Origin: Gautieria morchelliformis
Lineage: Eukaryota > Basidiomycota > Agaricomycetes > Gomphales > Gomphaceae
Reading direction: 5' to 3'
DNA: 64,000 nt
Assembly: GCA_015179125.1 (NCBI GenBank)
Contig: WHVA01000358.1
Span: 55,833-119,832 of the forward strand
Shown: positions 8,401-48,658 of the stretch, in pieces
How the letters are laid out: every line of letters starts with the position of its first letter
Numbering within the stretch: the first letter of the stretch is position 1
Made by a program: the position numbers and the translations under genes
The notes under the pieces: model-generated
What the model saw: the letters and a program-made list of their open reading frames with translations, nothing else
The model's database searches: none
Told to the model about the DNA's origin: nothing

Positions 8401-10121
8401 GCAGGACTGGCCATATCTGCAATGCTTCTGGAAACACAAAATCCTTGGCAACCCCTGCGGTCTTCTCTACCGGGTGGCCGTGCTACTGACAAATGCTCAT
8501 GCATGTGTCATGCCGAATCAGACTGCCCAGCGTTACTCCTGCCCGCCGCCCTCATTGGAAGAGTATTTTCACGCGTAAATACTGGTATATGCGAGCTTCT
8601 TTTGGTGATTAAAGGATTTTTTTCTCTACTGTTTTACTTTGTAAACCAAGAAAAGAATTTTTGATTTTCTTCTATACTGTTTTACTTTGTTAACCAAGAA
8701 ATGAATTTTTTTGGGTGATTAAAGGATTTTTTCTATACTGTTTTACTTTATAAACCAAGAAATAATTTTTTTGGAGCTATAACAACGAAAACATAGCTAA
8801 TTAATTGCTAAGGAAGATAGTTAATTGAGCAGACCCTGGCGCAAGATGTCAAGAAGCGCATTCGAGGTGCGCTCCTGCATATCAATGACCCGGTCTTGAC
8901 GAGCTATGAGCATCGTGCGGAATTCCCTCATTTCTTCGTCCTTCTTGGCCTCCCTTTCCTCCTTCCTTGCCTCTCGCTCATCACTCTTCTCCATAAGGTG
9001 CACCATCCTCGAGGTCTCCTTGGACAAATTCGTGCGGCTCGTGCTCGTCAGACGTGTCCGTTTCGACGCGGTCAACCAGGAATCGGGAGGGGTGCTGCTA
9101 GGCCCACTGTCATTCTCCTTCCCACTCTCTGAATCGGAAGATGAGGACGGGCGTGACCGTTTATTGCGGTCTTGGTGACCAGTCATCATCCCGAGTCGCA
9201 TGGTCTCCCCGGCCTCTCGGGAGGCATTCTGGACCTGGAACATGTGAGTCCTATAATATATTGATCACCATCACACTTACCTCTTTAGTCTGCTCCTTCT
9301 CCTCCTCACGGGTCTCCTTCGCATGTCTTTTGAGGTGCTGGATCGCATCGAGTTTGCCGGACAGGGATGCAAATGCAAGAGGATCACGCTCCAGCTCCTT
9401 GGAAAGTGGTGAGCGAGCTGAGGTTTTTTTTCCCCCCTACCAAAGGCATATGGGTCAGTTCGCATGCAATCATAGAATATTTACACGGCAGCTTACCTCT
9501 ACCCATCCCAGGAGTGATGTCACCTTATTCTTCAAGGTCTCTGCTTCTCGGTTCAAGCAGAGCCCCTCTTCCTGGACCATTGTGGCGACTGCCTTCCACC
9601 GTTCACCTACCTTGTTGCGCGGAGCCATGTAGGGATTGACATCGATCACCGCGCGAAGGAGATGCTCCAGATCCTTCGTAGAAAACTCCTCCCTTGGTTT
9701 CCGCACTTTGGAACGTGTGGAGCCTAAGGGGGGTCCTGAAGGGAGAGCAACTGGCTGAGAAGATGGTGCCGTGCTGGGTGGACGCGACGCGTTGGTTGAG
9801 TCACCAAGGAGCACAGGGTCGATCTGAGGCTCGTAGTGCATGTCTGAGGCTGTAGACGAGACGGTTGTCATACCGTAGAATGAAGCCGGAGGGATGGGGT
9901 CCATGGGGAGACTTGTCGGCCCTGGAGCGTTGGGAGCGCGGCAGTGGTGGACGTCAGTGGATGCGTTCTGAGATAGAAAATTCTCACGCTGAGTCAGTAA
10001 TTTTTAGCTACGCCGGAATATTCCGACCTAATAATTATTGGTAACATATACTCTCTAATGTAATAAGCACGTACATGTCTGATAGGGTCCGGATAATAGC
10101 CGAGGCGTCCGTCTGAGCCAT
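5487..10121 (-). CDS. DUF6533-type seven-helix membrane protein, split by a transposon in intron 1
   Basis: A multi-exon membrane protein of the fungal DUF6533 family (function unknown). Exon 1 starts at ATG 10121-10119 (MAQTDASAIIRTL) and ends at 10075. Exon 2 is 7161-7127 and exon 3 begins at 7072. Joined across GT-AG introns they read F-A-F-N-C-V-N-F-A-A-L-A-L-L-I-F-D-T-L-L-T in phase, the family's signature N-terminus, followed by LPSEIRHIW. Further exons supply LLARTYAISFQSHRVLGVLG (about 6700-6580), VVMITILSSFETWKLRQK (about 6330-6270) and the last helix plus acidic tail (IIICRFHLTLQ at about 5815, stop at 5487). Middle exon borders were not all fixed. Intron 1 contains the whole Harbinger element 7197-10056; without it the intron would be 50 nt. 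The coding exons look intact, but correct splicing over a 2.9-kb intron is uncertain. Confidence 0.75.
7345..8578 (+). CDS. Harbinger DDE transposase
   Basis: The nuclease that would cut and paste the surrounding element. Two exons, 7345-7595 and 7657-8578, join across a GTAAGC...AAAG intron to give about 390 residues. The DDE_Tnp_4-type core shows GFIDCTIQRTCRP (first Asp), YTGYKKFHGMKFQ, a GP-x-ND loop, YGDSAYG (second Asp) and VEHGFG (catalytic Glu), so all three acidic residues are present. The start at 7345 has a good context (ccaccATG) and is the first ATG of the frame. The N-terminal 130 residues are poorly conserved, as usual. It converges with the SANT-like gene; a short tandem repeat fills the gap between the two stops. 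Confidence 0.9.
8604..8774. repeat. Three tandem repeats between the two Harbinger genes
   Basis: Three copies of an AT-rich unit of about 50-60 bp follow each other (starting near 8604, 8663 and 8714). They share TACTGTTTTACTTT and AACCAAGAAA blocks; units 1 and 3 also share GGTGATTAAAGGATTTTT. The array separates the stop codons of two convergent genes, so it probably forms both 3' ends. Confidence 0.8.
8821..9904 (-). CDS. Harbinger-associated Myb/SANT-like DNA-binding protein
   Basis: The accessory protein that in Harbinger elements helps bring the transposase to the element ends. The ATG is at 9904-9902 (MDPIPPASFYGMTT). Exon 1 ends at 9497 with GTAAGC, then two more exons run to the stop at 8823-8821. 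The Myb/SANT-like domain is in exon 1: RKPREEFSTKDLEHLLRAV, then a Trp-containing helix with K-V-G-E-R-W and L-K-N-K-V at its end. The middle exon encodes a basic/acidic helix (KELERDPLAFA, RHAKETREEEKEQ). The C-terminus is Ser-rich then strongly helical (E-R-E-A-R-K-E-E-R-E-A). The exact acceptor of exon 2 (near 9420) was not settled. Confidence 0.8.
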
Positions 10122-12130: not shown

Positions 12131-12310
12131 GCAGTAGTCTAGATATAGAAGCTCAGTGAACGAGGTAGTTCACTGAGTATGTATTAGTACTCTACCTAGA
12201 TATAGAAGCTATCAACAGAGTGAGTGGCTTTATATCTAGACGTCGATAGAAAAGGATACGCACCTCAGTGAACAAGGTAGTTCACTGAGGTGCCGCTAAC
12301 TATGGTTCTG
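12131..12310 (-). repeat. Fragment of a copia-type LTR, reverse orientation
   Basis: Read on the minus strand, this piece has the same layout as the 3' half of the copia 1 LTR: hairpin, spacer, CTAG-containing repeat, second hairpin, repeat again, then TCTAGACTACTGC. The hairpin stems and repeats differ in sequence from copia 1, so it is a separate family. No upstream LTR part or target duplication was found. Confidence 0.7.
12139..12293 (-). promoter_or_regulatory. Twin-hairpin module, copy 1 (diverged family)
   Basis: On the plus strand the order is reversed. CTAGATATAGAAGCT occurs at 12139-12153 and again exactly at 12196-12210. Hairpin B is 12152-12177 (10-bp stem CTCAGTGAAC/GTTCACTGAG) and hairpin A is 12260-12293 (14-bp stem, GCACCTCAGTGAAC side). 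Compared with copia 1 the inner stem pair is C-G instead of T-A and an outer pair is C-G instead of T-A, so pairing is kept while bases change. Function unknown. Confidence 0.65.
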
Positions 12311-12321
12311 CACTATATACG

Positions 12322-16498: not shown

Positions 16499-19400
16499 AT
16501 GGCCGGCCCGAACTTCAAGGCTTACAGTCTACTTGACAAGCCATTCCCCGACCTCTTCACCCTCACTGCAAAGGCAAACCCAGATCGTGACCTCGTACAG
16601 ATCATCCAAGAGCAACCAGATGCGCCTGTCGACGCCATCCGGTACACATGGGGGCAGACTTTGCAGCATGCCCAGAATTCAGCCGTCGACATCAGGGCGC
16701 GATGGGTATCTTGCCTCAAAGACGCAGGTGCAGAGCAGAGCGCCCCGCCGCTTAGAGAACCCGGTTCAGCACCCATAGTCGTTGGCATTCTGGCTAATAC
16801 TAGCGGGTATGAGCTGTATATCAACATCTTAGCTTGCACATTGAATCGGTGGACCGTGAGTGTGTTACCTACACGCGGAGTGATATTCTGATGTTTGGCA
16901 TTGGCAGGCGCTGCTTCTCTCGCCCAGAAACAGCCCAGCCGCGATAGAGCGCCTGTTAGCAACATCCGGCTCATTGCTACTTCTCGTAGATGCCTGGCTG
17001 TTTCCCCAACATCGCCATCGGCAGCGAAATGGAACGGAATATATCTTGTCTCACGGCCATACGTATGGCCGCTCTCGATACGCTGGGGAGTGATGCTTTT
17101 GCATCTCCTCTCACCCCTCTCTCCCCTGAACAGCTCAAGGCGGAGATGGACTCGCCCGCCCTTCTCTTGCACACGTCTGGGTCTACTGGTCTGTGACTCA
17201 ACAGTCTCTGCCTTTCAGCATATGGCTCAGCTGCATTCAGGTCATCCTAAGATAATCCCTTGGACACACGATTTCATGCTTGGTCCTGCTAGGGTTCATC
17301 ATAAAATGGGACAGCATTTAGTCGGACTTCCATTCTACTGCGTTGCGCCACTCAGCCACGCTCTAACCCTATTCCCTTGCGTTCAGATTGTTCTAGTTGA
17401 TGGCTACCTCATCACCTTCGTCGCCTCTCCCACCCCGAAGCCTCCCACTGCCCAGGCTCTTCTCCGACACCTTCCTTTCATCAAGGGCGGTGTCGTCAAT
17501 GTTCCACCTTCAATCCTTGAGGACTTGCATGGCTTAGGCCCTGCGGCTGTCAAGGCGGCAGCAGACGCTCTGAAATACGTAGGGTATGCCGGGGCCCCGC
17601 TGAAGAAAGAAATTGGCGACTCGTTGGTTGCGGCTGGGATAAAACTCCACATTGGGGCCGGGGCGTACGTATTTAACGATAGGCAGACCCTATGCATTCT
17701 CACAGGCTGGTTACAGCACAGAAACCAGTGCGGTGTCTAAGTTTATTCCGCGGGAACACTGCAGAGATTGGCAATATGCCGATTGCAGTGACTTATATAA
17801 CATCATATGGCTTCCTGTTGATGGTGACACAAATCTGAAACATATGCTCGTTGCGGTCAGTCTTTTCCTCTCATTTGACCCCATTAATCTCCTACACGCT
17901 CCGACAGCCTAGCTCCATAGGTAGTCCTGCCGTGATCAATCATGAAAATCCCAGGGGTTATGCTACAAACGATCTCTGGGAGCCTCATCCAAGTGTTCCA
18001 AATTTGTGGAGATTCCATTCTCGTATGGGTAATGTCGTGCGTGGGGTATTTTTTTCCAATTTGGTGGCAGTTGAAGAACTTACGAGGGGTTCAGACTGTG
18101 CTCAGTAATGGTGAAAAAACGGATAATAAGCAAATAGGCACGTATACCGTTTCCACAGGGAAAGCATCTGTTGACCAGTGAGGTATGACATATAGAGGAG
18201 CTTCTCCTGGCGGACAAACGAATTCTTTACGTCCAAATTTTTGGCGCAGGTCGCCCTATGAATGGCATTGTTTTGCAGCCGAGAGACAACTCCATATCTG
18301 CCTCAGATTTTCTTTCGCAGATCCAACCCACCATCGAGCATACTAACACCATCATTCCGAAGCATTCGCGGCTCGTACGTGAACTTATCATTGTCGCACC
18401 ATCAGATAAGCCGTTTGCATTAACTGATAAATCGACTGTCAGGAAGAAGGAGACTCTCGACAGGTTCCAGGTAGAGATTGAAGCTGCCTACAAGATTCTG
18501 GATGAGGGAGGGAACGGTGATGACTGGGCATTTGAAGGCAGTGTAACAGATGAAAACGATCTGAAGAAGTTTGTGCGAAGCGCCATAAATCAAGTGCTTG
18601 GAGAGGGTGTCGCTGACGATGAAGATTTGTTTGAGCATGGTAATCTTGACCCGACAAGCCTTTGTTCGAAGCAATCTCACCCATCGTTGATAGGTTTCGA
18701 CTCTTTACTGTCTATCAAGAAGACGGTGACCACCACAAAACCGACGCCAAGGAACGTGGTCTATACCAGCCCAAGCGTGAATGCTCTCACAGCATACCTC
18801 CTCTCGCGATCTGTGCCAGACACCTCTGATGTTTTGAGTGCCACTTCAGAACGTATTCGCTCCACAATTGCCAAGTATTCAAGTAATTTCTCCCGTCACC
18901 AACCTGGCTCGACATTGGTCGAAGGCAAGGTGATCGCACTGACTGGCTCGACCGGGAGCGCAGGTAGTTCGATCCTGGCGTTGCTTTTGGATAGGAGCGA
19001 CGTAAAGAAGATTTATTTATTGAATCGCAAGGGGAACGAACGCCAAGACCTTCGCCAGGCGAAAGGATTCGAAGAACGAGGACTGAATCCAACTAAACTG
19101 GAGGCGAAGAAAGGGAGCCTAATCTATCTGGACATTGACCTGGCTAGGTCAGACCTTGGGCTCGAGGGTGCGGATCACACAGATGTGAGCTTCCAACCAT
19201 TACTCGCAGAAAATTCTGATCGCGTGTCCACCAGCTACGGGACAACGTAACGCATATCATCCACGCCGCTTGGCACCTCAATTTCAACCTCATCCTTGAA
19301 AGCTACGAACGCGTACATATCGCGGGCGTCCGACACCTGATCGACCTCGCCCTGGCCTCTCCGCACGCACGTCCTCCCCGGCTCACGTTCCTCTCCACAG

Positions 19401-20602: not shown

Positions 20603-22770
20603 TTATTTGGTGGAGGCGGACTCAGCCATCACGCGACCGACCAGGAGCTGTTTGAGCGTGAGATCTACCCGCAGTTCCTGCACTTGTTTTCCCCAGTTCT
20701 CCTTCAGCTTGATAATAAGCGCGACGATAGGATGCGTCGGCTCCAGACCGAGACTCCAATCTTGTCCGTCTCGACGTTTGTTAGCTTCCCTGACAAGGTG
20801 GCGCGTATCGACGAATAGCTCATGCAGGAGCTGAAGTAAAATTGACTCAGTTAAACGGAAATAATTTCAAACGAGTGGGGGTGCCCTACTATTTCCATCA
20901 CACATCTGAATGCGCTGTCCAAAGCACCCGCAACCCAGCTGTGCCGATCATCCGATTAGATTGCATCATTCCAGTAGATGAGAGAACTCACGCATGATTG
21001 ACGCTGGTCGCCTCACCGGCAATATGGAGTAGTCCCCTAGCGGCCGGCTGGGTCACCTCCGGATACAGAGTGCTGAATTGTCCAGGACCAAAATGCGCGA
21101 AAGCACCTATAGGAAGAATGGAAAGTAAGAGGAAGAAACAATGGGTAGGACGAGTAGCAATAAGCTCACCAATGGAGAATGAGTCTCCGTACCAGTTCCA
21201 TTCGTGGAAGGCCTTCACTTTCTTAGCAAGCGTGTCGTAGGGGATTTCATGCATTTCCGCAAGGTCCTCGAGAATTAATTTGCGCAGGATGCTTTCGGCA
21301 GAGTGATGTCCCTGCACGAATGCGCCTTGCCGGAGGGCATCCTGTCCCCAGGTGTAGCTGACAAGCATGGTCGTTCCTGAAGCGCCGTTCTCGATACCAT
21401 ACGACGGATAAACGACGATCCTGGTCTGGCGATCCGTTCTGGACACGCCCCCTTTGTGCCTTGGTTCCCACCACCTATCAGTAAATTGAATACCAACCTT
21501 CACACTTCCTCCATAGTGCAGCATACGCATAGCAGTTTTCAGTGCGTATGACAGCTGGCAGCTTTCCGTGTCCATCATGCGAAGAGCACCAAGTGTGACG
21601 GTAGAGACGATGTGATTAAAGCTGCGAGGGGTTTGTTCACCGTGTACGGAGGCCAGGATTTTCGGCGGCATCACGGTAAGACGAGACGGCATAATACGGG
21701 TGACGCGTTTGTTCAACAAAGGCTGTCCATCGGGACGGAGGGTCCTGGCCATGTCGAATGCTATCTTCTGTGCCCCTCCTCTGAAGGGCAGGTTTCAGCG
21801 ACGTATTCATGACACTAGATGTTGATGCTCACTGGATGCAGTACCAATTTACCTGCTCCTGCGGAAAATCGAAGTCAAGAGACTCCATGACGGCTTCTGT
21901 TAGTGCACCATCGAATAGACTAGTCCCTGAATCCATTGTCTCGCACCAGTCAACGACCTACAAAAAGGGCGCATGAAAAAGTAGAATGACAATGAAGGGA
22001 CAAGACCCACCGAGCTGGGATATTTGGGGTCTTGCATGGTCATGTACGTGCGGAAGGAGTGCGCGTCATACTGCATGAGAAACTCCCACCCCTTGTCAAA
22101 ATCATCTACCAGAGGCTTCCTGAAACGTTCAAGCTTTTCGTCAAGCCAATGTTGATAGCCTCGCTGGGCGAAGTTGTCGGGAACAAGACCACCTTTCGAC
22201 TCGCTGACATGGAATGGGTCTGCTTCGTTCTCGACAGGACCAGTTACTAAAAACCCATTGAATAGTCGAACATCCTGTGGCGTTGACAGGTGGTACGGGA
22301 TCTTCGTTTCCGGGCCGTAGTTGAGACGGCGGAATAGCGCGAAAGTAGTTTCCATAAGTGGAATATCAGGGAAACGCATGGCTCCTACGTCCTGTCATTG
22401 GGAAAAGAAATGGTGAGCGAGAGTATGGGGTTTTCGAAGGCAGCATTCGGCTCACATAGTAGTCGTTCGGTTTTTCCCCAAAGTGGTGCGTGAAAAGCCT
22501 TCCGCCGACCGTATTATTTGCCTCGAGTAATTGATACGGTATACCCAAATCCTGAAGGATCATTGCGGTATATAGACCAGCAGCACCCGCCCCCACGATT
22601 CCGACTTTGAAGTCGGGTGGCGGCCAGAGGGAAAGTTTAGGCGGATACGCTGGAGCGTCCGCGGCTTGAGGGTCGACAGGACCAGGGAGTGAGACTGGAA
22701 GGTTCAAGTGATAGCGTTCAAGAATAGCATGACCATGGCGCTCATGGATAGATGGGTTCCGTGCTGTCAT
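20603..22770 (-). CDS. Flavin-dependent amine oxidase (L-amino-acid/monoamine oxidase type)
   Basis: It would oxidise an amine or amino acid with FAD and release hydrogen peroxide. The ATG is at 22770-22768. After about 55 residues comes the FAD dinucleotide motif VGIVGAGAAGLY with LLEANNTVGGRLFT. Later exons give MRFPDIPLM, the substrate-side DPFHVSESKGGL, NWYCIQ/GGAQKIAFDMARTL joined over an intron, LSYALKTAMRMLHYGGSVKVG, and VSYTWGQDA. The C-terminal FAD-contact region is LLHIAGEATSVNHAWVAGAL, the family's G-E-x-x-S-x-x-H-x-W-x-x-G-A motif. A helical tail (LKQLLVGRVMAESASTK) ends at TAA 20605-20603. Frames are open through all exons seen. It converges with the reductase gene, which may point to a shared pathway; this is inference. 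Confidence 0.83.
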
Positions 22771-27297: not shown

Positions 27298-27302
27298 TCA
27301 GC

Positions 27303-27606
27303 TGTAGGGATTAGAGGGCTGAGGCCGGTAAGCGGGGAACGCAGGGTCGCGTCCGACGCACGGACGCATAGTTAGGTAGCCACGGTCATGCTTGATCGTG
27401 GCAGTATATTAGTTGAATGATAGCTAGTTGTACCTCAGTGAATTGTCCATTCACTGAGGTACGTACCGTTTCTGTGTACTGAGACATGCGATAGCTTACA
27501 CTTTGTCTATAGCTCCTTCGTCTCTAGGTACAGTAGTAATACATGCTCAGTGAATTGTCCATTCACTGAGCTCCTTCGTCTCTAGACTACTGCACCCATA
27601 CCAATA
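27303..27606 (+). repeat. Copia 1 left LTR
   Basis: 304 bp, TGTAGG...CCAATA. It keeps CpG at most sites where the right LTR has TpG or CpA. It contains the twin-hairpin module 27430-27585. Confidence 0.93.
27430..27585 (+). promoter_or_regulatory. Twin-hairpin module, copia 1 left LTR
   Basis: Hairpin A (27430-27462) has a perfect 14-bp stem, GTACCTCAGTGAAT side, with loop TGTCC. Hairpin B (27545-27571) has an 11-bp stem, GCTCAGTGAAT side, with the same loop. AGCTCCTTCGTCTCTAG occurs exactly twice, at 27511-27527 and 27569-27585, bracketing hairpin B. The module ends 21 bases before the LTR end, so it should be in the R/U5 part of the transcript (inference). Role unknown. Confidence 0.75.
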
Positions 27607-27619
27607 GGTTATGGGCCCC
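27607..27619 (+). promoter_or_regulatory. Primer-binding site, initiator-tRNA half-molecule type
   Basis: GGTTATGGGCCCC begins at the base after the LTR. It is complementary to the anticodon stem-loop of initiator methionine tRNA, as known for Drosophila copia, which primes from a tRNA half-molecule. The ATG inside this site also starts the gag frame. Confidence 0.75.
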
Positions 27620-28507
27620 GCAGAGCCCACAATGTCTACCTCCACCTCTAAGTCATTCGTCGTCCCGAAGCTGGCCAGCAGGGATGGCACGAACTGGGTC
27701 ACCTGGAAAAGCCAGACGTTAGCTACGCTGGCGGCGACGCACGGTGCGAAGCGTCACCTCGAAGGGACCGCTCGGATCCCCCACACGATCCTGACGTACC
27801 CTATACTTACAGACAAGGAGGAAGAGGACCTGGAGGAACTCGAGAAACGCTGGGATGACTACAATCAGTGTGAGGCAGCGATAATGGCACAGATATTCAC
27901 CACTGTCCCTGATAGCGTCCTCATCAAAGTCCGCAACCTAGCCATGGCAAAGGAGGTCTGGGAGGCCGTATGTGCAAGGCATGAGACAAGGGCACTCACG
28001 GTCAAGGTCAACATGCGACGCCGCATGTACGAGCTGAAGTGTGAGGACGAATCGAACGTCCGCATTCACCTGGAGTCCCTCATGAGGATGTAGGAGCAAC
28101 TCGCAGGGATGAACACGGGACTCACCGATGATGACCTGGTCACCATCATCCTTGGCTCGCTCCTGAAGTTGTATCGCTTGCTCATTAACGCGATAATGAT
28201 GTCCGCAGCACATGCAAAGGCCAAGCTAGAGCTGGATCAGGTGGTCAGCACATTAGTCGATGAATTCGAGCGACTCACCATTGAGGAACGGCAACTAAAG
28301 GCGAGCGAAAATGCGCTCGCAGCAGCAAAGGGCCAAGGGAAGACACCAGCATGCAGTGGCACCTCCAGCACCACGAAAACCGACAAAGCCGACATGGAAT
28401 GTTGGAAATGCGGGAAGAAGGGCCATATGAAGCCGATTGCCAGTCCAAGGCCAAAAAGAAGGACAAAAAAGATGAGGACAAGAAGGGGAAGGGGTCAGCG
28501 AATGTAG
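27611..28507 (+). pseudogene. Copia 1 gag
   Basis: The frame starts MGPAEPTMSTSTSKSFVVPK, with W-V-T-W-K and a UBN2-type helical domain (VWEAVCARHETRAL). It meets a TAG at 28091-28093, probably from CAG, and reopens as EQLAGMNTGLTDDDLVTIIL. A zinc knuckle C-W-K-C-G-K-K-G-H-M-K starts at about 28401, but the frame shifts inside it, so its final Cys is found in the next frame (A-D-C-Q-S-K). It formed the nucleocapsid of virus-like particles in the ancestor. Confidence 0.85.
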
Positions 28508-29739
28508 CGGCAGAGGGCGAGGAATTTGCGTTCACCACGATGTTTGCTGGGACAATGCTTGCGCTGGGAACAAGTCCAGTGACAGGACAGGAAGTCAATG
28601 TCTACGACTTGGGCGTGTCAGGCCACATGTCACCCAATAGGAACCGATTCCTCACCTTCAGAGAGATCACACTGCGTGCTATCAATGCCGCAGATAAAAC
28701 GGTATTCCAGGCTATTGGGATAGGCAACATGAGGGTTGGGATCCCTAATGGGAAGACTACGACACACGTCACCTTAAAGGATGTGTTATACTGTCCTGAC
28801 CTCGTGTTCACCCTGATTTCCCTGATGCGCTGCGATGCAGCAGGCTACTCGGTCATGTTGAAGGACAGAAAATGTATAATCCATGACGCGCGAGGGACAC
28901 TGCTAGGGAAGATCCCACTCTTGAATGGACTCTATAAAGTAGAGCACCAGGGGTTAGCAGCGTCAGCGAACGCCACACGGAGATGGATAAGCTACACCGC
29001 CGGATGGGGCATATCTCCCCCCACGCCGCACGGAAACTTGTCCAGGATGGCGCAATCATGGGGATTGACGTCGTCGGGAAGGTTCAGCGAAAAGGTCCAT
29101 TCGGATGTGTGGGGGCCTGCGAACCCCCAGAGCTACAATGGAAGGGAATATTTCATCAGTTTCACCAACGATCACACTAGGTGGATGTACCTGGTACCCA
29201 TGGCAAGGAAAAGCGAGGCATTCAGCTGCTATAAGCAGTACAAAGTCTGGGTCGAGACTCAACATGGCGCGAAACTCAAACGCCTGCAGACAGATCGTGG
29301 GGGTGAATACTTGTCCCAGGAGTTCACGGCGCACCTCAAGTCGAAAGGAATGGTACAGAGCCTCACCGTACACGACACGCCAGAGGAAAACGGCATGTTG
29401 GAACGTCTGAACAGGACACTGTTGGAGCATGCACGGGCCATGCTCCTCACAGCGAACCTACCCAAGTTCCTGCGGACAGAGTCAGTACAACATGCGGTCT
29501 GGCTGAAGAACAGGACTTCGACGCATGCACTTGACGGCAAAACACCGTATGAGATGGTGTACGGCATGAAGCCCAATCTGACAGACTTCCCTGAGTGGGG
29601 CACAAGGATATTTGTGCTAAAAGAACAGGCTGGCAAGTTGGAGTCGATATCCGACGAGGGGAGGTGGATGGGTATAGTGATGAGAGTAAGGGCACAGGGC
29701 TTACTGGCCCAGGAAGTGCCGTGTCACGGTCAAATGTAA
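28420..29739 (+). pseudogene. Copia 1 protease-integrase region
   Basis: The protease active site reads V-Y-D-L-G-V-S-G-H-M where D-S-G-A-S-G-H-M is usual, so the Asp is kept but the triad is altered. The pre-integrase zinc region (MDKLHRRMGHISPHAARKL) is in another frame at about 28983. The integrase core follows: HSDVWGPANPQSYNGREYF, TDRGGEY and PEENGMLERLNRTLLEHARA, so the D, D and E positions are present. The frame ends at 29739. The linker 29740-30063 towards the reverse transcriptase is Pro/Gln-rich and interrupted by stops. Confidence 0.85.
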
Positions 29740-30802
29740 AGTCACATTTGACGCCCCATCCTCATCACTCCTGCTGACACGCTGGCTGAGGGGGAGTCTG
29801 ACACCCAAGGCAGCCAGGGCGCCAGCAGCAGCACCCCTCAGGACCAAGGACCACCACCACAGGCAACCACCGGTCCCACGTGAATTGACCTGCTCGAAGG
29901 GTTCGAGGACGCGGATCCACCAGCCGACCCGCCGCAGGGCAGGGGCCACCATACACGGAAACCCTCCACGTATGTGCGAGGGATTGCCGACAGCGCAGGC
30001 AGCAGCATGGGTTGCGCAAACACACCCATGTACCCGCGAGGACTGCCATGACCCACGGATGGCATGGCGCTAGCTGCCCTGACGGAGCTAGGCGAGTCCA
30101 CCACCGCTGAGACCAAGGGGGAGACACGTCGTCCCCTCGAGTACTTGATGGCAGCGGGGAAACGTGATACGGGAGACGACCTGGTCAGTGTTGCTGATGT
30201 GCAGTCCCGCAATGACTGGCCGCTGTGGGATGCGTCGATCAAGCGGGAGCTGGCCCAGCATGAGACGCTAGGGACCTGGGACCTGGTCGAACCCCCGGAC
30301 AATGCGAACATTGTCGGCAGCAAACTAGTCTTTCACTACAAACATGACACTAGCGGTGAGGTTATAGCCCACAAGACCAGGCTCATCACGCAAGGGTTCT
30401 CACAGATAGAAGGGATTGACTATTATGAATCATTTTCCCCCACTGCTAAGCTCTCAGCCATCCGCATCATCACCGCAATCTCTGCCCAAAATGACTGGGA
30501 ACTGGAACAGACCGATGTAGATAGAGCCTACCTCAATGCCCCAATCACGGAGACGATATACATGTGCCAACCAAAAGGGTATGAAGCGCCCAGGAGGGAG
30601 CACTACATGTGCCACCTGAACCGCGCAATATATGGGTTGAAACAGTCAGGGAGGGAATGGTATGATATGCTATGCGGTATTATGTACAGGTTTGGGTTCA
30701 CGCGATGCGAGACTGAGCACGCTGTGTTCCACAGGTACGCCAGCCACCATGCCCTCATCATCACTGTCGACGTAGATGACCTTACCATGGCCGGCAACAT
30801 GA

Positions 30803-31181
30803 TGTTAGCAACTCGGGGTTATGGCAGGGAAGGTTCAGTAGAGCTCTTAGAAAGCTAGAATCAAATTCACTCTCTCAGTGAATTTATTGTCACTGTTATA
30901 TTAATACAATACCTAGAATCAAATTCACTACATGACTTTCAGTCAACATGCTATGAAAATATAAAGAATACTACTCGCCTCTCTCAGTGAATTTATTGTC
31001 ACTGAGAGAGGAGCACTATCCTGTCTCAGAAGGCATATACGTGCACCTGGCCCTAAATTTCGAAAATAATCAGAGAAGTGATGCATGGTACAAGAACAAT
31101 GTGAGAAGAGATTGAAACACCATACAATAAATCGAATATATTATGCTTGATTTTGGTGCAGGAGCATAAATGCACCCAAAA
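30803..31181 (-). repeat. Solo LTR of a copia 2-related family, inserted in copia 1
   Basis: The minus strand begins TTTTGGGTGCATTTATGCTC and follows the copia 2 LTR closely for about 120 bases, then diverges but keeps the twin hairpins. It ends GTTGCTAACA. The flanks share CATGA (30798-30802 and 31182-31186), extendable to AACATGA, so the exact ends are ambiguous by two bases. Length is about 379 bp against 497 in copia 2. Confidence 0.85.
30855..31011 (-). promoter_or_regulatory. Twin-hairpin module in the solo LTR
   Basis: Hairpin A is 30978-31011 (13-bp stem CCTCTCTCAGTGA/TCACTGAGAGAGG). Hairpin B core is 30876-30895 (CAGTGA/TCACTG). CTAGAATCAAATTCAC is repeated exactly at 30855-30870 and 30913-30928 around hairpin B. 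The repeat differs from that of copia 1 and copia 2 while the layout is the same. Confidence 0.7.
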
Positions 31182-32122
31182 CATGAAGGGTGCAATATGC
31201 AAGTGCAAGGACGAGCTGCGCACTGTCCTTAAGATTAAGGATATGGGTGACCTGCACTGGCTGCTAGGGATAGAGGTGAAGAGGGATCGCGGGTTACACA
31301 CAATCTTGCTATTGCAGCGTGCGTATGTCCAGAAGATACTCGAAAGGTTTAATTTACAGGATGCTAACCCGCTCAGCACTCCACTCGACCCCCACCACAA
31401 GCTTTCCCTATCCCAATGTCCCTCCACCCCTTGCCAGTTTGAAGATATGCGGAGTGTACCTTACAGGGAAGCCATCAGCCCCTCATGTACGCAGCACTGG
31501 GCACCCGACCAGACATCTCATTCGCCATCTCATTCCTGTCACAGTTCATGCAAAACCCTGGGAGGCTGCACTGGGAGGCGGTCAAACGGGCCTTCCATTA
31601 CCTCAAAGGGACGAAAGACTTGAACCTTGTCATCGGGGGAACTGGGAAAGGACTTGAGGCATTCTCGGATGCGGATTGGGCATCACAAGAACACCGTCAC
31701 TCCATCTCTGGATATGTCTTCACGATGGGTGGCGGTGCCGTTTCATGGAGCTTGAAAAACTAGCGATCATCGCACTTTCAATGACAGAGGCCGAGTACAT
31801 CGCGGCAACACATGCTGCAAAGGAGGCCCTCTGGATATGCATGTTCCTCATGGAGAGAGTGCGCCCCCCAACTAAACCCATCACCATACTCCTAGGCAAC
31901 GCCTCCGCCATCTCCATCACCAAGAACGACGAGTATCATCCGCACACGAAGCACATCAATATTGGTACCACTTCATATGCCAGTCGGTACAGGAGAATCT
32001 CCTACATGTTGACTATGTACCTACGGTGGACATGGCAGCTGACATGTTCACTAAAGGGCTCCCCCGGCACAAGGTACTGCACATGAATGCGCTGGTGGGA
32101 CTGTGTTCTGCTTAAGGGGGAG

Positions 32123-32426
32123 TGTAGGAATTAGAGGGCTGAGGCCGGTAAGCAGAGAACGCAGGGTTGCGTCCAATGCATGGATGCATAGTTAGGTAGC
32201 CATGGCCATGCTTGACTGTGACAGTATATTAGTTGAATGATAGCTAGTTGTACCTCAGTGAATTGTCCATTCACTGAGGTATGTACCATTTCTGTGTACC
32301 GAGACATGTGATAGCTTACACTTTGTCTATAGCTCCTTCGTCTCTAGGTACAGTAGTAATACATGCTCAGTAAATTGTCCATTCACTGAGCTCCTTCATC
32401 TCTAGACTACTGCACCCATACCAACA
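32123..32426 (+). repeat. Copia 1 right LTR
   Basis: 304 bp, TGTAGG...CCAACA, followed by target duplication TCAGC. It differs from the left LTR at 20 sites, all transitions. The twin-hairpin module is at 32250-32405, with one change (G to A) in the left arm of hairpin B. Confidence 0.93.
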
Positions 32427-32431
32427 TCAGC

Positions 32432-33226: not shown

Positions 33227-34200
33227 TGTCAAGATTGGATTTTAGGCATTAATATCGTGTATTAGTGAACACAGCAAATGCCCGAATGGCTTGTGCAATG
33301 AAGTGTGTAGTTTGGCAAATAAGATGCACGAATAAATGTTTAGAAGGTAAGCGGGCTGCCCGAACGGGGTTCACCCTATCTACAGTCATAGTGAAATAGC
33401 CCGTGACACTTGACGATGTAATGTTCAAGGTCTCACGGAAAGGTTGTCTATTGGTAACAATCCTTTTGCTGCTGAAGGTGCTCCTTCAGAGCCCTTCGTC
33501 GAAAGCACCGATAATAGTATGAAGGCTAAGGTAATGAAGGTGAAGTATGAAAACTCACCAGTGGCGCTTAAGTCCTCCTCTGGTCTAAGATAGGAGTCTA
33601 TAGAAGAGGGCTCAAGATGACGGTCACAGTGAGGTCAAGCTTTTGCACAAGATAGACGTATGATAATTGAACTGGGGAATATACATGCGAATGTAAACTA
33701 CGTATACCGAATGCTCATATGATGTTAGTGAATAGGAAAGAGACCGTCTTGAGTGAGGGTTGGATAGGGGTGCACAGTCAGGATACAAATAGGTGAAACA
33801 CATATACAATGGAAGAAGGGAGGAGTGCGAACATGAAACAATGGAGGGAGAGAGGATGAAGGTACCTATGTAGGAAAACATGCATACATGTTACCCTGCA
33901 CGGACTCTTGGTCTGCTGGGTTGATCCCACATGATCTACGGGTAGGACGTCCCACGAATGCATCCCGGCCATAGGAACACCCAAAGGGGGTTGAGTCAGG
34001 AAGATGATGGGACCAGTGATGAACCATCATGCCAGGTAAAGGACATCGATCATGTTTGATGGTGTGCCTACTGGTGAATGATGCGAGTAGCAAATAACCG
34101 TTTGGTGAATTTGGCGAAGAGCGAATGGAGCGAACATAGAGGTGGAGTGATGAAAGGGAAAATGGAGGTAACTGGATACAGGAATAAATGGGTCATGGCA
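33227..34200 (+). repeat. Gypsy LTR of the TGTCA family
   Basis: It begins TGTCAAGATTGGATTTTAGG and ends GGTCATGGCA (terminal TGACA changed to TGGCA), 974 bp. It is followed by what looks like the internal leader and gag start of a gypsy element (34201-34927), so it is probably a true 5' LTR rather than a solo one. Confidence 0.85.
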
Positions 34201-34927: not shown

Positions 34928-35925
34928 CACACTGTTTTCCCTTTCACCACTCCTCCTCCATGTTCGCTTGGCTTCACCCCTCCCTTCGACCATGCCTCCT
35001 CTATGTTCTCTCCATTCGCCCTTCGCTGCATTCGCCAAATGACCATTCGCTGCTTGCATCATTCGCCAGCAGGCATGCCATCAAACACGATTGAATCCTC
35101 TACCCGGCGTGATGGTTCATCACTGGCCCCATCATCTTCCCCTCAACCCCTTTAGGTGTTCATTTGACTGGAATGCATTTCGCGGGACGTCATACCCATA
35201 GATCGTGTGGGATCAACCCAGAAGACGCAGAGTCCGTGCAGGGTAACGTGTATGCAGGTCTTAAGGCATGTTTTCGTACATAGGTACCTTTGCCCTCCTC
35301 TCCCCCCCCGTCGTTTCACATTCACACTCCTCCTTCTTTCTATTGCATATGTGTTTCACCTATTTTGTATCCTAACTGCGCACCCCTATCCAACCCTGAC
35401 TCATGATGGCCTCTTTCCTATTCTTTGCCATCATACAAGCATTCGATATAAGTAGTTTACAGTTGCATGTATATTCCCCAGTTCAATTATCATACATCTA
35501 TCTTGTGCAAAACCTGACCTCACTGTGACCATCATCTTGAGCCCTCTTCTATAGACTTCTATCTTCGACCAGAGGAGGACCTAAGCACCACTGGTGAGTT
35601 TTCGTACTTTACCTTCGTTACCTTAGTCTTCATATTGTTATCTGCGCTGTTGGCAAAGGACTCCAAAGGAGTGCCTTCACCGGTGAAAGGATTGTAGCTG
35701 CTGAACAACCTTTCCATGACACCTTGCACATTAGGTTGTCAAGTGTCATGGGCTACTTCGCTACGACTGTAGATAGGGCGATCCCTGTCCAGGCAGCCCT
35801 CTTATCTTTTGAACATTTAATGGTTCACCCTATTCGCCGAATGGCATGGCTCTTTTCACAAGCTATTCGGGCATTCGCTGTGTTCACTAATACATATTAT
35901 TAACACCTGAAAACCAATCTTGACA
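34928..35925 (-). repeat. Gypsy LTR, reverse orientation, one end missing
   Basis: It matches the reversed family from the TTTTCCCTTTCACCACTCC block to the end AACCAATCTTGACA at 35925. The first 60 or so bases (the LTR's 3' end) are missing where it meets the gag fragment, so part was deleted or the junction is a recombination point. Confidence 0.8.
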
Positions 35926-38616: not shown

Positions 38617-40083
38617 TGTCAAGATTGGATTTTGGGCATTAATATCGCATGTTAGTGGCGAATTCCCGAATAGCATGTGCGATCTAGCGAATTGCCCAGC
38701 GAATAGTACCAAAGAGGTAAGGGTTAATAAGAAGGTTACCTGAAAAGAGTTCGCCCTGATCTACAGTCGAGGCGAAATAGCCCGTGACACTTGACGATGC
38801 AATATGCAAGGTGTCTTGGAAAGGTTGTCTAAGCATTGACAATCCTTTCGCCGGCGAAGGCGCTCCTTCGGAGCCCTTCGCCGACAGCACAGAAAATAGT
38901 TCGAAGGCTAAGGTAACGAAGATGAAGTATGAGAACTCACCAGTGATGCCTAAGTCCTCTCCTGGTCGAAGATAGAAATCTACAGGAGAAGGCTCAAGAC
39001 GATAGTCACAGTGAGGTCAAGTTTGAACAAGATGGACGTATGATAATTGAACTGCAGAATATACATGCGGATGTAGACTACTTATACCGAATGCTCATAT
39101 GGTGCTAGCGAATAGGAAAGAGGCCGTCTGGAGTCAGGGTTGGATAGGGGTGCATGGTCAGGATACATAATAGATGAAATAGACATACAATAGAATGGAA
39201 GAGGAGTGTGAACATTAAACAATGGAGAGGAAAGAGGGCGAAGGCCCCTATGTACGAAAACACGCCTTGGGACCTGCATATACACCACCCTGCACGGACT
39301 CTTTGTCTTCTGGGTGATCCCACATGACCTACGGGTAGGACACCCCATGAATGCATTCTGGCCATAGGAACACCCAAAGGGGTTGAGTTGAGAAGATGGT
39401 GGGACCAGTGATGAACCATCAACCCGGGTAAAGGATGTCGATCGTGTTTGATGGCGTGCCTGGCGAATGATGCAAGTAGAAGGGGAAAACAGGGATAGCT
39501 GGGTAAAAGAAATAAACGAGTCATGACATCCTGCACCTCCTTGCAATTCATGATAGGACCAATGATGAACCATCAATCCAGGTAAAGGATGTCGATTGTG
39601 TTTGATGGCATGGCTACTGGCAAATGATGCGAGTAGCGAATGGTCATTTGGTGAATGTGGCGAATAGTGAATGGAGCACGGAGTGAATGGAGCGAAGCTG
39701 AGCGAACATGGAAGAGTGGTGAAAGGGAAAACAGGGATAGCTGGATACAAGAAATGAATGGGTCATGACAACTGTGTAGTGAAAACTTCAGTGAAGCTAA
39801 TTCGTCTTGCCCTGCAGTGGTACGAGTCCCATTGAGTTCAACCTGCACGGAGGCTGCAACTGACACTATCTGAATGCATCCTGAGCATGTGGGTCTGTCA
39901 TGGAGTGGGAGTTTAACAGATGATGGGTTCTATGATGGATGATGGCCCCAACACCTGGCGTCCTGCGAGGAATGATGCGAATAGTGAATGTGAAAGCAGT
40001 ATGGCAACGAATATTTCGGCAAGATATTCGCTGGTTCGGGAAGTTGTTCGCTGGTTCAGGAGCAGAATAAATGAATCATGACA
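38617..40083 (+). repeat. Compound solo LTR (1467 bp) inside gypsy A
   Basis: It begins TGTCAAGATTGG and ends AATCATGACA, flanked by ATATG on both sides (38612-38616 and 40084-40088). It has the normal family body to 39528 (internal TCATGACA), then a second, related 3' segment with another TCATGACA near 39770, and a third segment to the end. The copy at 56481 has the same construction, so the compound form transposed as a unit. Confidence 0.92.
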
Positions 40084-42052: not shown

Positions 42053-43110
42053 TGTCAAGATTGGTTTTTAGGCATTAATATCGTGTATTAGTGAACACAG
42101 CGAATGCCCAAATAACTTGTGCGAATAGGTATGCCGTTTGGTGAAAAGGATGAACCAATAAATGTTCAGAAGATAAGAGGGCTGCCTGATCGGGGCTCGC
42201 CCTATCTACAGTCGTAGCAAAATAGCCTGTGGCACTTGGCGATGTAACGTGCAAGGTGTCACAGAAAGGTTGTCTAAGTAGCGACAATCCTTTCGCTGGC
42301 GAAGGCGCCCCTTCGGAGCCCTTCACCGACAGCACAGAAAATAGTTCGAAGGCTAAGGTAATGAAGATGAAGTATGAAAACTCACCAGTGATGCCTGAGT
42401 CTTCCTCTGGTCAAAGATAGAAATCTACAGGAGAAGGCTCAGGACGATAGTCACAGCGAGGTCAAGTTTTGCACAAGATGGATGTATGATAATTGAACTG
42501 GGGAATATACATGCGGATGTAAACTACTTATATCGAATGCCCGTATGGTAACAGTGAATGGGAAAGAGGCCGTCATGAGTCAGGGTTGGATAGGTGTGCG
42601 CAGTCGTGAGTCAGGGTTGGATAGGGGTGCGCAGTCGTGATACAAATAGATGAAATAGACATACAATAGAATGGAAGGGGTGTGTGAACATGAAACGACA
42701 GAGAAAGAGGGCGAAGGCACCTATGTACGAAAACATGCCTTGGGACCTGCATGTACACCACCCTGCACAGACTCTTCATCTGCTGGGTTGATCCCACACA
42801 ACCTACGGGTAGGACGTCCCGCAAATGCATCCTGGCCATATGAACGCCTAAAGGGGCTGGATTGAGCAGATGATGGGGCCAGTGATGAACCATCACACCC
42901 GGTAAAGGGTGTTGATCGTGTTTGATGGCATGCCTGCTGGCAAAGGATGTGAGTAGCATATGGTTGTTCGGTGAATGTGGCGAAGAGCGAATGGAACGAA
43001 CATAGGGGAGGTGTGGTCGGAAGGTATGGCGAACTCAGGCGAAGATGCAGGAGGAACGATGGGAGGTGGCAGAGAGACAGCAGGGTAAGGGAAATAGACA
43101 GGTCATGACA
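42053..43110 (+). repeat. Solo gypsy LTR (1058 bp) inside gypsy A
   Basis: TGTCAAGATTGG...GGTCATGACA, flanked by AGTTT (42048-42052 and 43111-43115). Removing it rejoins E-F with Q-V-G-D-K-V-W of the integrase C-terminal region. A 30-base segment around GTGAGTCAGGGTTGGATAGG is tandemly duplicated at about 42573-42635. A simple, non-compound member of the family. Confidence 0.93.
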
Positions 43111-44902: not shown

Positions 44903-45399
44903 TGTTGGGTGCATTTATGCTCCTGCACCAAAATCAAGCATAATATATTCGATTTATTGTATGGTGTTTCAATCTCTTCTCACATTGTTCTTGTACCATG
45001 CATACATTTCTCTGATTATGTTCGAAATTTTCCAGTCACTCCCTACCTCTCCATTTTATTTTGTTATTTCTATTTTCACAGGCGGCTGCACCCAGCGGAG
45101 TCTGAAATGACTCGACGCGTGAGCTCTTGGGTGCTAAAGAGCCGGGTGGTAGTACATGCACAGTGAGACAGATTTCCCCCTCTCTCAGTGACAACTAAAT
45201 TCACTGAGAGAGGCAAGTAAATTAGTCTAGTGTTCTTTCGATTTATTGACCTAGAAATCCTCTGTAGTGAATTAATTTCTAGGTAGTGTATAATATATTT
45301 ACAGTGACAACTAAATTCACTGAGAGAGTGAATTAATTTCTAGGCTATTCTTTTGAGCAACAAGTCCATACCTACTGCCTATAATTCCTGTCCTCTACA
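44903..45399 (+). repeat. Copia 2 left LTR
   Basis: 497 bp, carrying the twin-hairpin module 45179-45344 in its 3' half. One base separates its CA end from the primer-binding site. Confidence 0.94.
45179..45344 (+). promoter_or_regulatory. Twin-hairpin module, copia 2 left LTR
   Basis: Hairpin A (45179-45213) has a 13-bp stem CCTCTCTCAGTGA/TCACTGAGAGAGG with loop CAACTAAAT. Hairpin B core (45302-45322) is CAGTGA/TCACTG with the same loop. GTGAATTAATTTCTAGG is repeated exactly at 45267-45283 and 45328-45344. A competing 8-bp hairpin (45314-45334, AATTCACT/AGTGAATT, loop GAGAG) uses the right arm of hairpin B together with the start of the second repeat. So two folds are mutually exclusive. 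The same module is in the right LTR at 50990-51155. Confidence 0.72.
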
Positions 45400-45400
45400 G

Positions 45401-45413
45401 GGTTATGGGCCCC
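45401..45413 (+). promoter_or_regulatory. Primer-binding site of copia 2
   Basis: GGTTATGGGCCCC, identical to the copia 1 site and complementary to the anticodon region of initiator tRNA. One G lies between it and the LTR end. Confidence 0.75.
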
Positions 45414-46472
45414 GGAGACACTTCTGAGAAGCTATTGGGTGTTGAGAAGCTTGCTACTGATGGAAGTAATTGGCCATTGTGGCGAGCCACTCTCATCAGC
45501 TATTTCGAGTCCAAAAATCTACTCAAGCATGTAGAAGGGAGAGTCACTCGACCTCCTGATCCTCCAGTTATGCCCCCAGGCCATATTCTTACAGAAGCTG
45601 AGGAAACTCAGATGGATAAGGCTGAGGAGAAGCTGGAGAGATATCTTGCTAGAGAAGGACAAGCCAAGACCCAAATCATCGTCTCAGTGTCAGAGTCACT
45701 AGCTCTGATGCTACAGAAACAAAAGACAGCAAAAGAGACTTGGGATGCATTGGTCAATGAAATAACCAAAAAGCCCAAGATGGTCCTCACCAGCCTGCAG
45801 AGACAACTCCGCAGTATGAGATGTCCTGAGGATGGAGACTTGAGAGATCATTTGGACAAGGCCCAAGACCTATATGCTCGTCTTAATGAGATGGGAGCCA
45901 GAGTTTCTGAAGAAGAATTCATGGACATTATCCTTGCGTCACTTCCACCATCCTATGAGGCAGTCATGAACGCCCTTACCCCTTCGCTTGAAGAATGCGG
46001 GAGGCCATTAGTCCCTGATGATATTATTAGGGTACTAAAGGCTCAGTATGACAGGAAGAAAACACTCCCGCAAGAAGAGCAGGTGTTTATTGGTTCATCT
46101 ACTAAGAAGGACCAGAAGGGGCAGAAGGCGCATATATGCACCAACTGCAAAAAGCCTGGACATTCCATCGAAAATTGCTGGGCTAAAGGTGGTGGTAAAG
46201 AAGGTCAAGGACCACGTCAGAAGAAAAAAGCCAAAGGCAAGAAGAAGAAGAAGGGTAAAGCAAAAGTGAATGTTGCTGAAGAAGAGTCCTCTTCTGAGGA
46301 AAGTGATGATGGGCATCTTTCCTTCACCAATTTCGACGAGTGCTCTAATTTCAATCTGAGCACATCCTCAGGAGTTATAGTCATACTCGACACCGGAACG
46401 GCATCGCATATGACTCCTCACAAAAATTTATTGAGGAACTACTGTCAATTCTCACAGCCGAGGACTATCTGA
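45405..46472 (+). CDS. Copia 2 Gag-protease frame, 3' truncated by a stop
   Basis: An open frame of 355 codons begins MGPGDTSEKLLGVEKLATDG, with N-W-P-L-W-R and a UBN2-type Gag domain (TAKETWDALVNEITKK, LPPSYEAVMNAL). The zinc knuckle is C-T-N-C-K-K-P-G-H-S-I-E-N-C at about 46137-46178, followed by a Lys-rich stretch and an acidic Ser patch. The protease active site I-L-D-T-G-T-A-S-H-M follows. A TGA at 46470-46472 stops the frame where A-A-N-K-G-T-F continues, consistent with a lost Arg codon (CGA). The Gag part itself is complete and could be translated. Confidence 0.85.
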   Translation: MGPGDTSEKLLGVEKLATDGSNWPLWRATLISYFESKNLLKHVEGRVTRPPDPPVMPPGHILTEAEETQMDKAEEKLERYLAREGQAKTQIIVSVSESLALMLQKQKTAKETWDALVNEITKKPKMVLTSLQRQLRSMRCPEDGDLRDHLDKAQDLYARLNEMGARVSEEEFMDIILASLPPSYEAVMNALTPSLEECGRPLVPDDIIRVLKAQYDRKKTLPQEEQVFIGSSTKKDQKGQKAHICTNCKKPGHSIENCWAKGGGKEGQGPRQKKKAKGKKKKKGKAKVNVAEEESSSEESDDGHLSFTNFDECSNFNLSTSSGVIVILDTGTASHMTPHKNLLRNYCQFSQPRTI

Positions 46473-47596: not shown

Positions 47597-48658
47597 TTTT
47601 AGATTAAGGTGTCAATTAGTGCCTTTTAACAAGTAGAATCTATTGCTCAGTGATTGAAACCACTGCGTTCGTCCCTCTTCTATGTGCTGGCTAAGCCTTT
47701 CGAGGCGCGTCCAGCACTGATGAATGAGAGTCACGTGACCATGTCGACAGAAGAACGGTGTCGATCCAAGGGATAGTCAAATCAAAAGTGTTCGCTTTTA
47801 AGGTAGTATAGAGTAAACAGTGATAGTAGACCCTCGACGAAGATTTGGAATAAACTATCAAGATCTGAGCTCTGTAGCTATCAAACAAGACTACAGTAAT
47901 TTCAGGAGGCAGAATAATCGATTCTGGATGATTTCGTTCATACATGTGTACTAGCTATTTATACTATGTTGATAGTAACTACTAGTGTTCAAGATATTGG
48001 ATGGATGGGTCGAAAAGCTGTTTGTAACTAAGGGGTGACTAATTTATAGTCATAAAGTCATGGGGTGATGGGGATGGTGTTAGGATTGTCTGGGCTTTGG
48101 AATAGAGATCTGTACCTAGTATACAAAGCCCCTGTCCACATGATGTTAAGATAGTAATCAGTCAGACATGTCATGGGGTTCAAATAGGAAAATGAATCTG
48201 AGTTTACCCTGCCCAGAATATATGCTGGGCTTGGAGATGGGGCCGCTGTCTCTGTGCCCTTTCTGTGGGGCAGCTGATTGAGTCTGTATACTGCAGGTGA
48301 CATTCTCAGGTCGCTCCACAGCATCCTATACTCCTGCGCAGTCTATTGTTCTCTGCGGCGTTTGGTGCCTGCACCCCTCGGTGCCTATGGCCTGGCGCCT
48401 GTCGACGTCATGGCCGATGCCATCACTCGATAGGCGTGCCGTCCCTGATCGACCGCACGTGGTCGACGCTCGAACTCCTGTATATTACCCGATCTATGGG
48501 TAATATAGCGTGTCATAAAATTCGTGTGATCGTCGTCTGCGTCGACATCTATTATAAATGTCATTTTGTTTCTTTTTAATCTTTTTCTTTTCTTTTCTTT
48601 ATTAGTTTCTTTTTATATATAGATGATTAAAAATAGGGTAGTTGCGTTTATCACAACA
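47597..48658 (-). mobile_element. 1062-bp TGTTG...AAAA element, copy in copia 2
   Basis: On the minus strand it begins TGTTGTGATAAACGCAACTA and ends CACCTTAATCTAAAA. It is flanked by GAGCG (47592-47596 and 48659-48663). The copy at 61165-62227 has the same two ends and its own 5-bp duplication, so the ends are well defined. Inside, in element orientation, are a purine-rich tract near the start, a TATA-like AGTATAAATAGCTAG at about two thirds, and a weak CAGTG/CACTG hairpin near the end. That layout resembles a solo LTR, but the 3' end is not CA. The 84-codon frame (47945-47691) is shared with the other copy but has no recognised domain. Confidence 0.85.

Follow-up and report, generated by a model that had tools for sequence, protein, structure and literature searches.

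Candidate leader introns and an apparently pre-spliced exon copy inside the LTRs of fungal copia retrotransposons

The long terminal repeats (LTRs) of copia-type retrotransposons in Gautieria morchelliformis carry a duplicated module whose probable explanation is that two leader introns lie within the LTR beside a copy of the exons that is already spliced, and that strong-stop DNA made from spliced RNA lands on this copy (B-R2 below). What can be read from the DNA is the duplicated layout, the identity of the repeats within a copy, the content of splice signals and the structural variants; we infer that the leader is spliced, where transcription starts, that strong-stop DNA lands as proposed and that a splice site is masked. 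A fuller version, to which we give slightly better than even chances, has the leader spliced in every cycle, the introns restored on the pre-spliced copy, and the whole hairpin silencing the splice site only at the 3' end.

Results

Ordinary copia elements carry a duplicated module in their LTRs

The window, that is, the whole stretch of 64,000 nucleotides under analysis, holds the module at six places, which resolve into two LTR pairs (27430/32250 and 45179/50990) and two single LTRs. All six LTRs are of copia-type retrotransposons: the elements el1 and el2, and single LTRs of the families so4 and so3. A sequence-only reading of this DNA had described one layout shared by the six. The sequences are as it described at 6/6 places, and the order hairpin A, x, R1, y, hairpin B, R2, followed by u5, is common to all six in the LTR sense, although two of the copies (12139-12293 and 30855-31011) actually lie on the minus strand.

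Self-alignment delimits a 304-bp 5' LTR (27303-27606) and a 3' LTR with the same module (32123-32426) in el1, both on the plus strand, and direct reading places the 5-bp target-site duplication (TSD) TCAGC at 27298-27302 and 32427-32431. The LTR ends read AATA in the 5' LTR and AACA in the 3' LTR. Directly after the 5' LTR, direct reading identifies a primer binding site on the plus strand (27607-27619, GGTTATGGGCCCC); we take it to resemble the anticodon arm of initiator tRNA-Met and presume it to be akin to the half-tRNA type of copia elements. An ATG within it is, again by direct reading, in frame with gag. The ORF with Pol_BBD and rve (integrase) domains (28351-29739, plus strand; rve match 28351-29736) lies upstream of the ORF with the RVT_2 copia reverse transcriptase domain (30064-30858, plus strand; match 30064-30855), which is the copia order. 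The el1 reverse transcriptase region also holds one inserted so3-family LTR (30855-31183) in reverse orientation.

The second element, el2, has a 497-bp 5' LTR (44903-45399, TSD AATGG), a 3' LTR (50714-51210), a gag ORF (Retrotran_gag_2, 45405-46472; domain match 45405-46469) and an RVT_2 ORF (48938-50461; domain match 48938-50458), all on the plus strand. The two LTR pairs are 93.7% and 99.4% identical and are bounded by the 5-bp TSDs TCAGC (el1) and AATGG (el2). By domain order, gag_2, LTR pairs and TSDs, the host elements are ordinary Ty1/copia LTR retrotransposons.

Elsewhere in the window, the internal part of el2 at 47597-48658 has an inverted copy, 92.6% identical, at 61165-62227 near the right end. 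A dispersed repeat of ~0.6-0.9 kb, ~69-92% identical between copies, occurs in both orientations (1-720, 3468-4073, 33227-34159, 34981-35925, 38617-39479, 42053-42995, 53352-54186 and 56481-57391). A DDE_Tnp_4 transposase ORF lies at 7694-8578, reductase-like ORFs with AMP-binding (one below cut-off) and NAD_binding_4 matches at 16895-19250, and an amine oxidase fragment at 20988-21752.

The module is abundant and hairpin A covaries

All genome scans covered one genome (122 Mb, 1,113 contigs), within which the window lies. The two-hairpin core pattern gave 1,665 + 1,700 strand matches against 1 + 2 for a reversed control, far above chance and equivalent to ~1,700 module places, because one module usually matches both strands. 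The core CAGTGA/TCACTG, said to be present in all hairpins of the window, is complete in 11/12, hairpin B of the 32250 copy reading CAGTAA. The repeat called exact within each copy is so in 5/6, with one difference at 32250; the 17-mer reported at 50990 differs only at its last base, beyond the repeat proper. The statement that the repeat sequence differs between families holds, R being nearly arbitrary from one family to the next.

Paired changes of stem bases, also reported earlier, are borne out for hairpin A but almost wholly absent from hairpin B. In an alignment of 18 rows (17 distinct) from four families, tested against shuffles and slid partners with kinship ignored, 96.2% of hairpin A cells are paired and both sides have changed in 5/14 pairs, a number reached by 4/500 shuffles; its covariation score was reached by 0/500 and lies above that of slid partners too. 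The number of further pair types in hairpin A is not above shuffles (468/500 reach it). Hairpin B, which barely varies, covaries at 1/11 pairs, with a score reached by 12/500 shuffles. Four of the five doubly changed hairpin A pairs join positions +1 to +4 of the candidate intron 1 (in el1 and so4) to partners in U3. Folding z-scores were -6.0, -8.7, -3.3 and -4.2.

Several structural identities were considered and rejected. A hammerhead or other known RNA is set aside on 0 Rfam matches at gathering score within the window, a kissing-loop dimer because direct reading finds the loops not to be self-complementary, and a dimeric DNA-binding site because the spacer varies from 8 to 10 nt and the outer arms covary. 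Nor does R1 pair with x throughout: in so3 no such pairing holds, and in el1 it does so only in part.

The sequence-only reading had taken the module for a conserved twin-hairpin RNA serving packaging, dimerisation or strand transfer, with no introns involved. Its placement of a conserved structure in R/U5 is supported by the TATA box spacing in el1 and so4 given below, and the covariation of hairpin A and the low folding energy speak for it. As a full account we nevertheless find it very improbable: hairpin B hardly covaries, the A and B loops are kept identical with no structural need, and the intron signals of x go unexplained. Structure alone is insufficient because the loops and R stay identical within copies yet change between families, and because the module edges look intron-like. 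The suggested role in assisting strand transfer comes close to our preferred reading, in which strong-stop DNA lands on B-R2.

The module edges resemble fungal introns

Full hairpin A of el1 spans 27430-27462. We parse the module, all of it on the plus strand, as follows: the presumably transcribed part of hairpin A (AGTGA...CTGAG, 27437-27458) as exon 1; x (GTACGT...CTTAC...TAG, 54 nt, 27459-27512) as candidate intron 1; R1 (CTCCTTCGTCTCTAG, 27513-27527), followed by GTA, as candidate exon 2; and y, hairpin B and R2 together (27528-27585) as candidate intron 2, whose 3' splice site at the end of R2 is placed partly from the tandem-R LTRs described below. B (27549-27570) would then be the second copy of exon 1, and R2 (27571-27585), which abuts it, the second copy of exon 2, the two forming the pre-spliced landing copy. 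A spliced leader A|R1|u5 would have the same sequence as the LTR string B-R2-u5.

The same parse applies to the other copies. In the el1 3' LTR, exon 1 falls at 32257-32278, intron 1 at 32279-32332, R1 at 32333-32347, B at 32369-32390 and R2 at 32391-32405. The el2 5' LTR has exon 1 at 45187-45212, intron 1 at 45213-45267 (GCAAGT...TTGAC...TAG), R1 at 45268-45282, B at 45303-45328 and R2 at 45329-45343, and its 3' LTR has them at 50998-51023, 51024-51078, 51079-51093, 51114-51139 and 51140-51154. The so4 single-LTR module (12139-12286, minus strand) comprises exon 1 (12264-12286), intron 1 (12209-12263, GTGCGT...CTCAC...TAG), R1 (12196-12208), B (12152-12174) and R2 (12139-12151), and that of so3, nested in el1 (30855-31003, minus strand), comprises exon 1 (30979-31003), intron 1 (30928-30978, GCGAGT...TTGAC...TAG), R1 (30913-30927), B (30870-30894) and R2 (30855-30869).

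Ten families were compared through one representative each: el1, so4, el2, so3 and six more from the genome scans. In 10/10, x is 51-55 nt long, starts with GT[A/G]NG or GC[A/G]AG and hence has G at +5, ends in TAG (T at -3), and contains a YTNAY branch motif whose A lies 11-18 nt before the end, the motif nearest that range being taken where a family has several. With the A allowed 8-30 nt from the end of x, YTNAC occurs in 9/10 families against a shuffled mean of 2.8 (0/10,000 shuffles), CTNAY in 8/10 against 2.8 (12/10,000) and YTNAY in 10/10 against 5.5 (25/10,000). Among 56 parsed copies, x starts with G[T/C]RNG in 53 and ends with TAG in all 56. The edges of x are set mainly by the duplication, x running from where A ends to where R1 begins. 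Passages of a study of Fusarium report introns with a median of 57 nt, G at +5 in 93%, YAG in about 93-94% and CTRAY in 91%, the minor forms being TTRAY and CTHAH (PMC5677156); x matches these introns in length, +5 G, YAG and branch motif. Its sequence thus points to x being intron 1, of the fungal spliceosomal type.

For intron 2 the signals are less complete. R1, 12-16 nt long, ends in YAG followed by GTA in 54/56 parsed copies, and at the 3' splice site of the candidate intron 2 (y+B+R2) the YAG recurs, R2 agreeing with R1 at the last base in 51/54. Direct reading shows that its GTA donor lacks G at +5 in 10/10 families. The branch site can only be guessed at, as TTCAC in hairpin B; one in y was rejected, lying ~12 nt from the donor and thus too close. 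On these features y+B+R2 may be a second intron with a weak donor. The y segment (window 27528-27548 and 45283-45302) is well conserved between families (GTAnnGTAnnAATAnA) and possibly serves in splicing or as a poly(A) signal; the latter may lie in its conserved motif GTAnnGTAnnAATA.

LTR variants correspond to predicted splice isoforms and landings

Landing of strong-stop DNA on A would turn fully spliced RNA into an A-R-u5 LTR, and RNA from which only intron 2 had been removed into A-x-R-u5. Both classes occur. The A-R-u5 scan gave at most 123 matches (several antisense), with 24 read among 100 listed; both introns are absent from 20/20 of those read that end in T, and L168-L171, which end in A or C, retain x with an altered first base and fall outside the class. 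A separate scan returned 40 matches at 30 loci, 16 of which are A-R-u5 with seven or eight R types, the other 14 being so3 hairpin B (7), hairpin B of another family (1), antisense (5) and an x with altered first base (1). For A-x-R-u5, at most 188 matches were found and 20 read among 100 listed; intron 2 is absent from 20/20 of those read that end in C or T, one of them with tandem R, and at least two of the listed matches, C25:84070 and C354:66457, fall on full modules and represent ordinary copies in which a base has changed.

RNA lacking only intron 1 would, on landing on A, yield A-R1-y-B-R2, and two LTRs (L080 and L085) precisely lack intron 1 alone. Landing on B would give a third hairpin from unspliced RNA and A-x-R1-y-B-R-y-B-R2 from RNA lacking intron 1 only; the former A expansion is seen in L032 (so4), L168 (el2) and L167 (so3), the latter R expansion in five LTRs (L079 and L081-L084). 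Exon 2 skipping would leave A-u5, to which one match corresponds (L166). If the AG that closes B served as acceptor, A|R1|R2 would result, and landing on B would then give B-R-R. Such tandem R occurs in 15 matches against 0 in the control; 11/15 were read, in short stretches that take in the beginning of x but no more of hairpin A than its end, and 10/10 are x-R1-y-B-R-R-u5, while L155 is A-x-R-R-u5. The ten represent five haplotypes, and their independent origins are uncertain. Some tandem-R matches lie ~4.8 kb apart on the same strand, like LTR pairs (C586:56485 and 61261; L155-L165).

These variants bear on a reading without splicing, in which ordinary direct repeats in R/U5 are homogenised by template switching or unequal exchange and kept in two copies by selection. 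Expansions and contractions do occur in repeat units, repeat length is 12-26 nt, and the variants met most often have simply lost what lies between two repeats. Losses of intron 2 or of both introns, as well as the A and R expansions, could arise by recombination or template switching between direct repeats, and the common loss of intron 2 despite its weak donor fits repeat recombination at least as well. Tandem R, the loss of intron 1 alone (2 LTRs) and exon 2 skipping (1 LTR) appear hard to obtain by such means, although a 15-nt slippage duplication could be an alternative for tandem R: B-R-R is not reached in one step and intron-1-only loss takes two. Nor do ordinary repeats predict that x in 10/10 families should have +5 G, a terminal TAG and, 11-18 nt before its end, a branch motif, or an R that ends in YAG and is followed by GTA in 54/56 copies. 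We therefore regard the absence of splicing as unlikely.

A related possibility, rated lower still and in our view doubtful, is that only intron 1 is spliced and that y-B-R2 is removed by a reverse transcriptase jump from R2 to R1 during strong-stop synthesis. The contrast between the strong signals of intron 1 and the weak intron 2 donor, without +5 G, would be expected, and R1 and R2 are identical, as the jump needs. However, the tandem-R LTRs (15 matches, 10 read) and the one exon-2-skip LTR fit GTA/TAG splice sites, and R expansions, expected whenever the jump fails, are rare (5 read).

The paired repeats are linked by copying

Hairpin B repeats hairpin A in direct orientation, in the loop as well as the stem, and R2 likewise repeats R1. 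The sequence-only reading had passed over the A/B repeat, as it had the intron-like ends of x. Across 45 copies from four families (the triple-hairpin L032 being left out of 46), R1 equals R2 exactly in 30, the remainder having 1-2 differences, and A equals B in 20, the remainder having one; four of the non-exact R pairs (L044-L047) count a base past a shorter R. Subfamilies of el1, so4, so3 and el2 have R variants and loops of their own, with both copies altered together. Because these paired changes are family-specific, A and B, like R1 and R2, are linked by copying and not just by structural selection. TSDs flanking an inserted y-B were rejected as the source of the repeats, which change together after subfamily splits.

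Homogenisation is not absolute, one A/B loop difference being common to some copies (L016, L017). Among the el1-family copies L009-L028, several R1/R2 or A/B differences are C/T or G/A (for example TTCGTC/TTCATC), the pattern that CpG or RIP-like mutation would leave once an element had inserted.

At the downstream edge of R, the last base is identical between R1 and R2 in 51/54 copies, the base after it in 5/54. Upstream of the hairpins, A and B agree in 46/56 copies at -1, 44/56 at -2, 40/56 at -3 and 15/56 at -4, in a table that required exact AGTGA...TCACTGA and a near match to the first 12 bases of R, which makes identity a matter of construction at +1 to +5, where exon 1 ends and where R starts. 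Several loci share a B that has G or T at -1 in an otherwise equal hairpin. This upstream edge fits, but does not prove, a copied tract that begins at the 5' end of the RNA.

In the mechanism that we prefer, such copying would follow from reverse transcription. Synthesis primed by a tRNA and reaching the 5' terminus of the spliced RNA would produce minus-strand strong-stop DNA (u5'-R1'-A'), which would land on B-R2 of the unspliced 3' LTR RNA, matching it over its whole 3' end. Copying would continue through y, R1, x, A and U3 and so regenerate a full-length LTR with both introns kept. Each cycle would rewrite B and R2 from A and R1, and the repeats would therefore be exact yet family-specific and the loops common to both hairpins.

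A start site within hairpin A could unmask the leader splice site

The position of the TATA box suggests that transcription starts at the A of CTC|AGTGA, inside hairpin A. The box starts 31-34 nt upstream of this A in almost every el1 and so4 copy examined; it is TATATT at 27405-27410 (plus strand) in el1, starting 32 nt before the proposed +1, and lies at 12314-12319 (minus strand) in so4. The exception among el1 copies is L016, with a spacing of 22 nt; L048, whose hairpin A was missed, was left out of this scoring. In so3, TATATG lies 36 nt upstream of the putative start, and the el2 copies examined have no clear TATA box. A start between the repeats was rejected by reasoning only: every scheme drawn loses part of the LTR.

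With such a start, the 3' LTR RNA would contain hairpin A whole, its outer stem covering the 5' splice site of intron 1, and the 5' leader, which would begin inside the 5' arm of hairpin A, would be without the U3 partners and thus without that cover. In folding predictions, adding U3 lowered the openness of the 5' splice site (-3 to +2) from 0.40 to 0.00 in el1 and from 0.48 to 0.01 in so4 (16/16 each). Single copies of further families went from 0.23 to 0.01 (el5), 0.23 to 0.00 (el6), 0.50 to 0.16 (el8) and 0.30 to 0.22 (f10), and one f9 copy, at 0.00 with and without U3, is uninformative. The predicted drop in so3 is weak (0.30 to 0.24, lower in 8/13), and in el2 masking is not supported (0.14 to 0.17, lower in 2/6). 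With a -2 to +6 window and more U3, predicted openness was lower in 22/22 el1, 18/20 so4 and 1/1 so3 copies; with that window el2 went from 0.38 to 0.52, lower in 0/2. Masking as modelled would thus fit el1, so4 and some others; it would not fit el2, which has a GC donor.

Exons 1 and 2 contain no ATG in 56/56 copies; ATGs occur in intron 1 of 36 and in intron 2 of 15. In el2 it is an ATG within the primer binding site that opens the gag ORF. Since the upstream ATGs lie in the putative introns and gag starts in the primer binding site, splicing would remove these ATGs where they are present.

Discussion

If the proposal is right, a pre-spliced leader within the LTR would allow an element to be spliced and still keep its introns. 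The LTR variants, each standing for one isoform and one landing choice, would then document in the genome which isoforms were made and where first-strand transfer landed, and one could estimate from genomes how accurate that transfer is. A search of the open-licence PMC literature found no introns inside an LTR together with a spliced duplicate. The leader arrangement therefore looks new, splicing of LTR elements and their introns being already known.

Drosophila copia and Ty1 are Ty1/copia LTR retrotransposons. The elements described here are like them in having gag_2, integrase before RVT_2, a 5-bp TSD and, in el1 and el2, LTRs; unlike them, they appear to carry introns and a pre-spliced exon copy inside these LTRs.

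The R region of HIV carries the TAR and poly(A) hairpins. More generally, retroviral long R regions contain stem-loops, and R homology drives the first strand transfer, according to passages of PMC3601003. Set against the R regions outlined there, the LTRs of G. morchelliformis differ in that the 5' copy would be interrupted by introns and in that the 3' landing site would be a separate, contiguous copy (PMC3601003).

Ogre, EVADE, BARE1 and Cer1 appear in sections of PMC12786077 as intron-bearing LTR elements with spliced RNA, and they share with the LTRs studied here the splicing of LTR-retrotransposon RNA, which in our case is proposed from the genome (PMC12786077). Splicing in those elements, as these sections have it, yields subgenomic or protein-specific RNAs, whereas here it is the leader part of the LTR that would hold the introns, and the template itself would be spliced RNA (PMC12786077). 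Intron loss through spliced RNA is named there as the classic proof of retrotransposition (PMC12786077). Penelope-like elements, in an extract that cites Arkhipova et al. 2003, keep introns through retrotransposition, an antisense template having been suggested (PMC3846280). The retention of introns is alike in the two cases; in the copia LTRs of G. morchelliformis it would come about through landing on the pre-spliced copy (PMC3846280).
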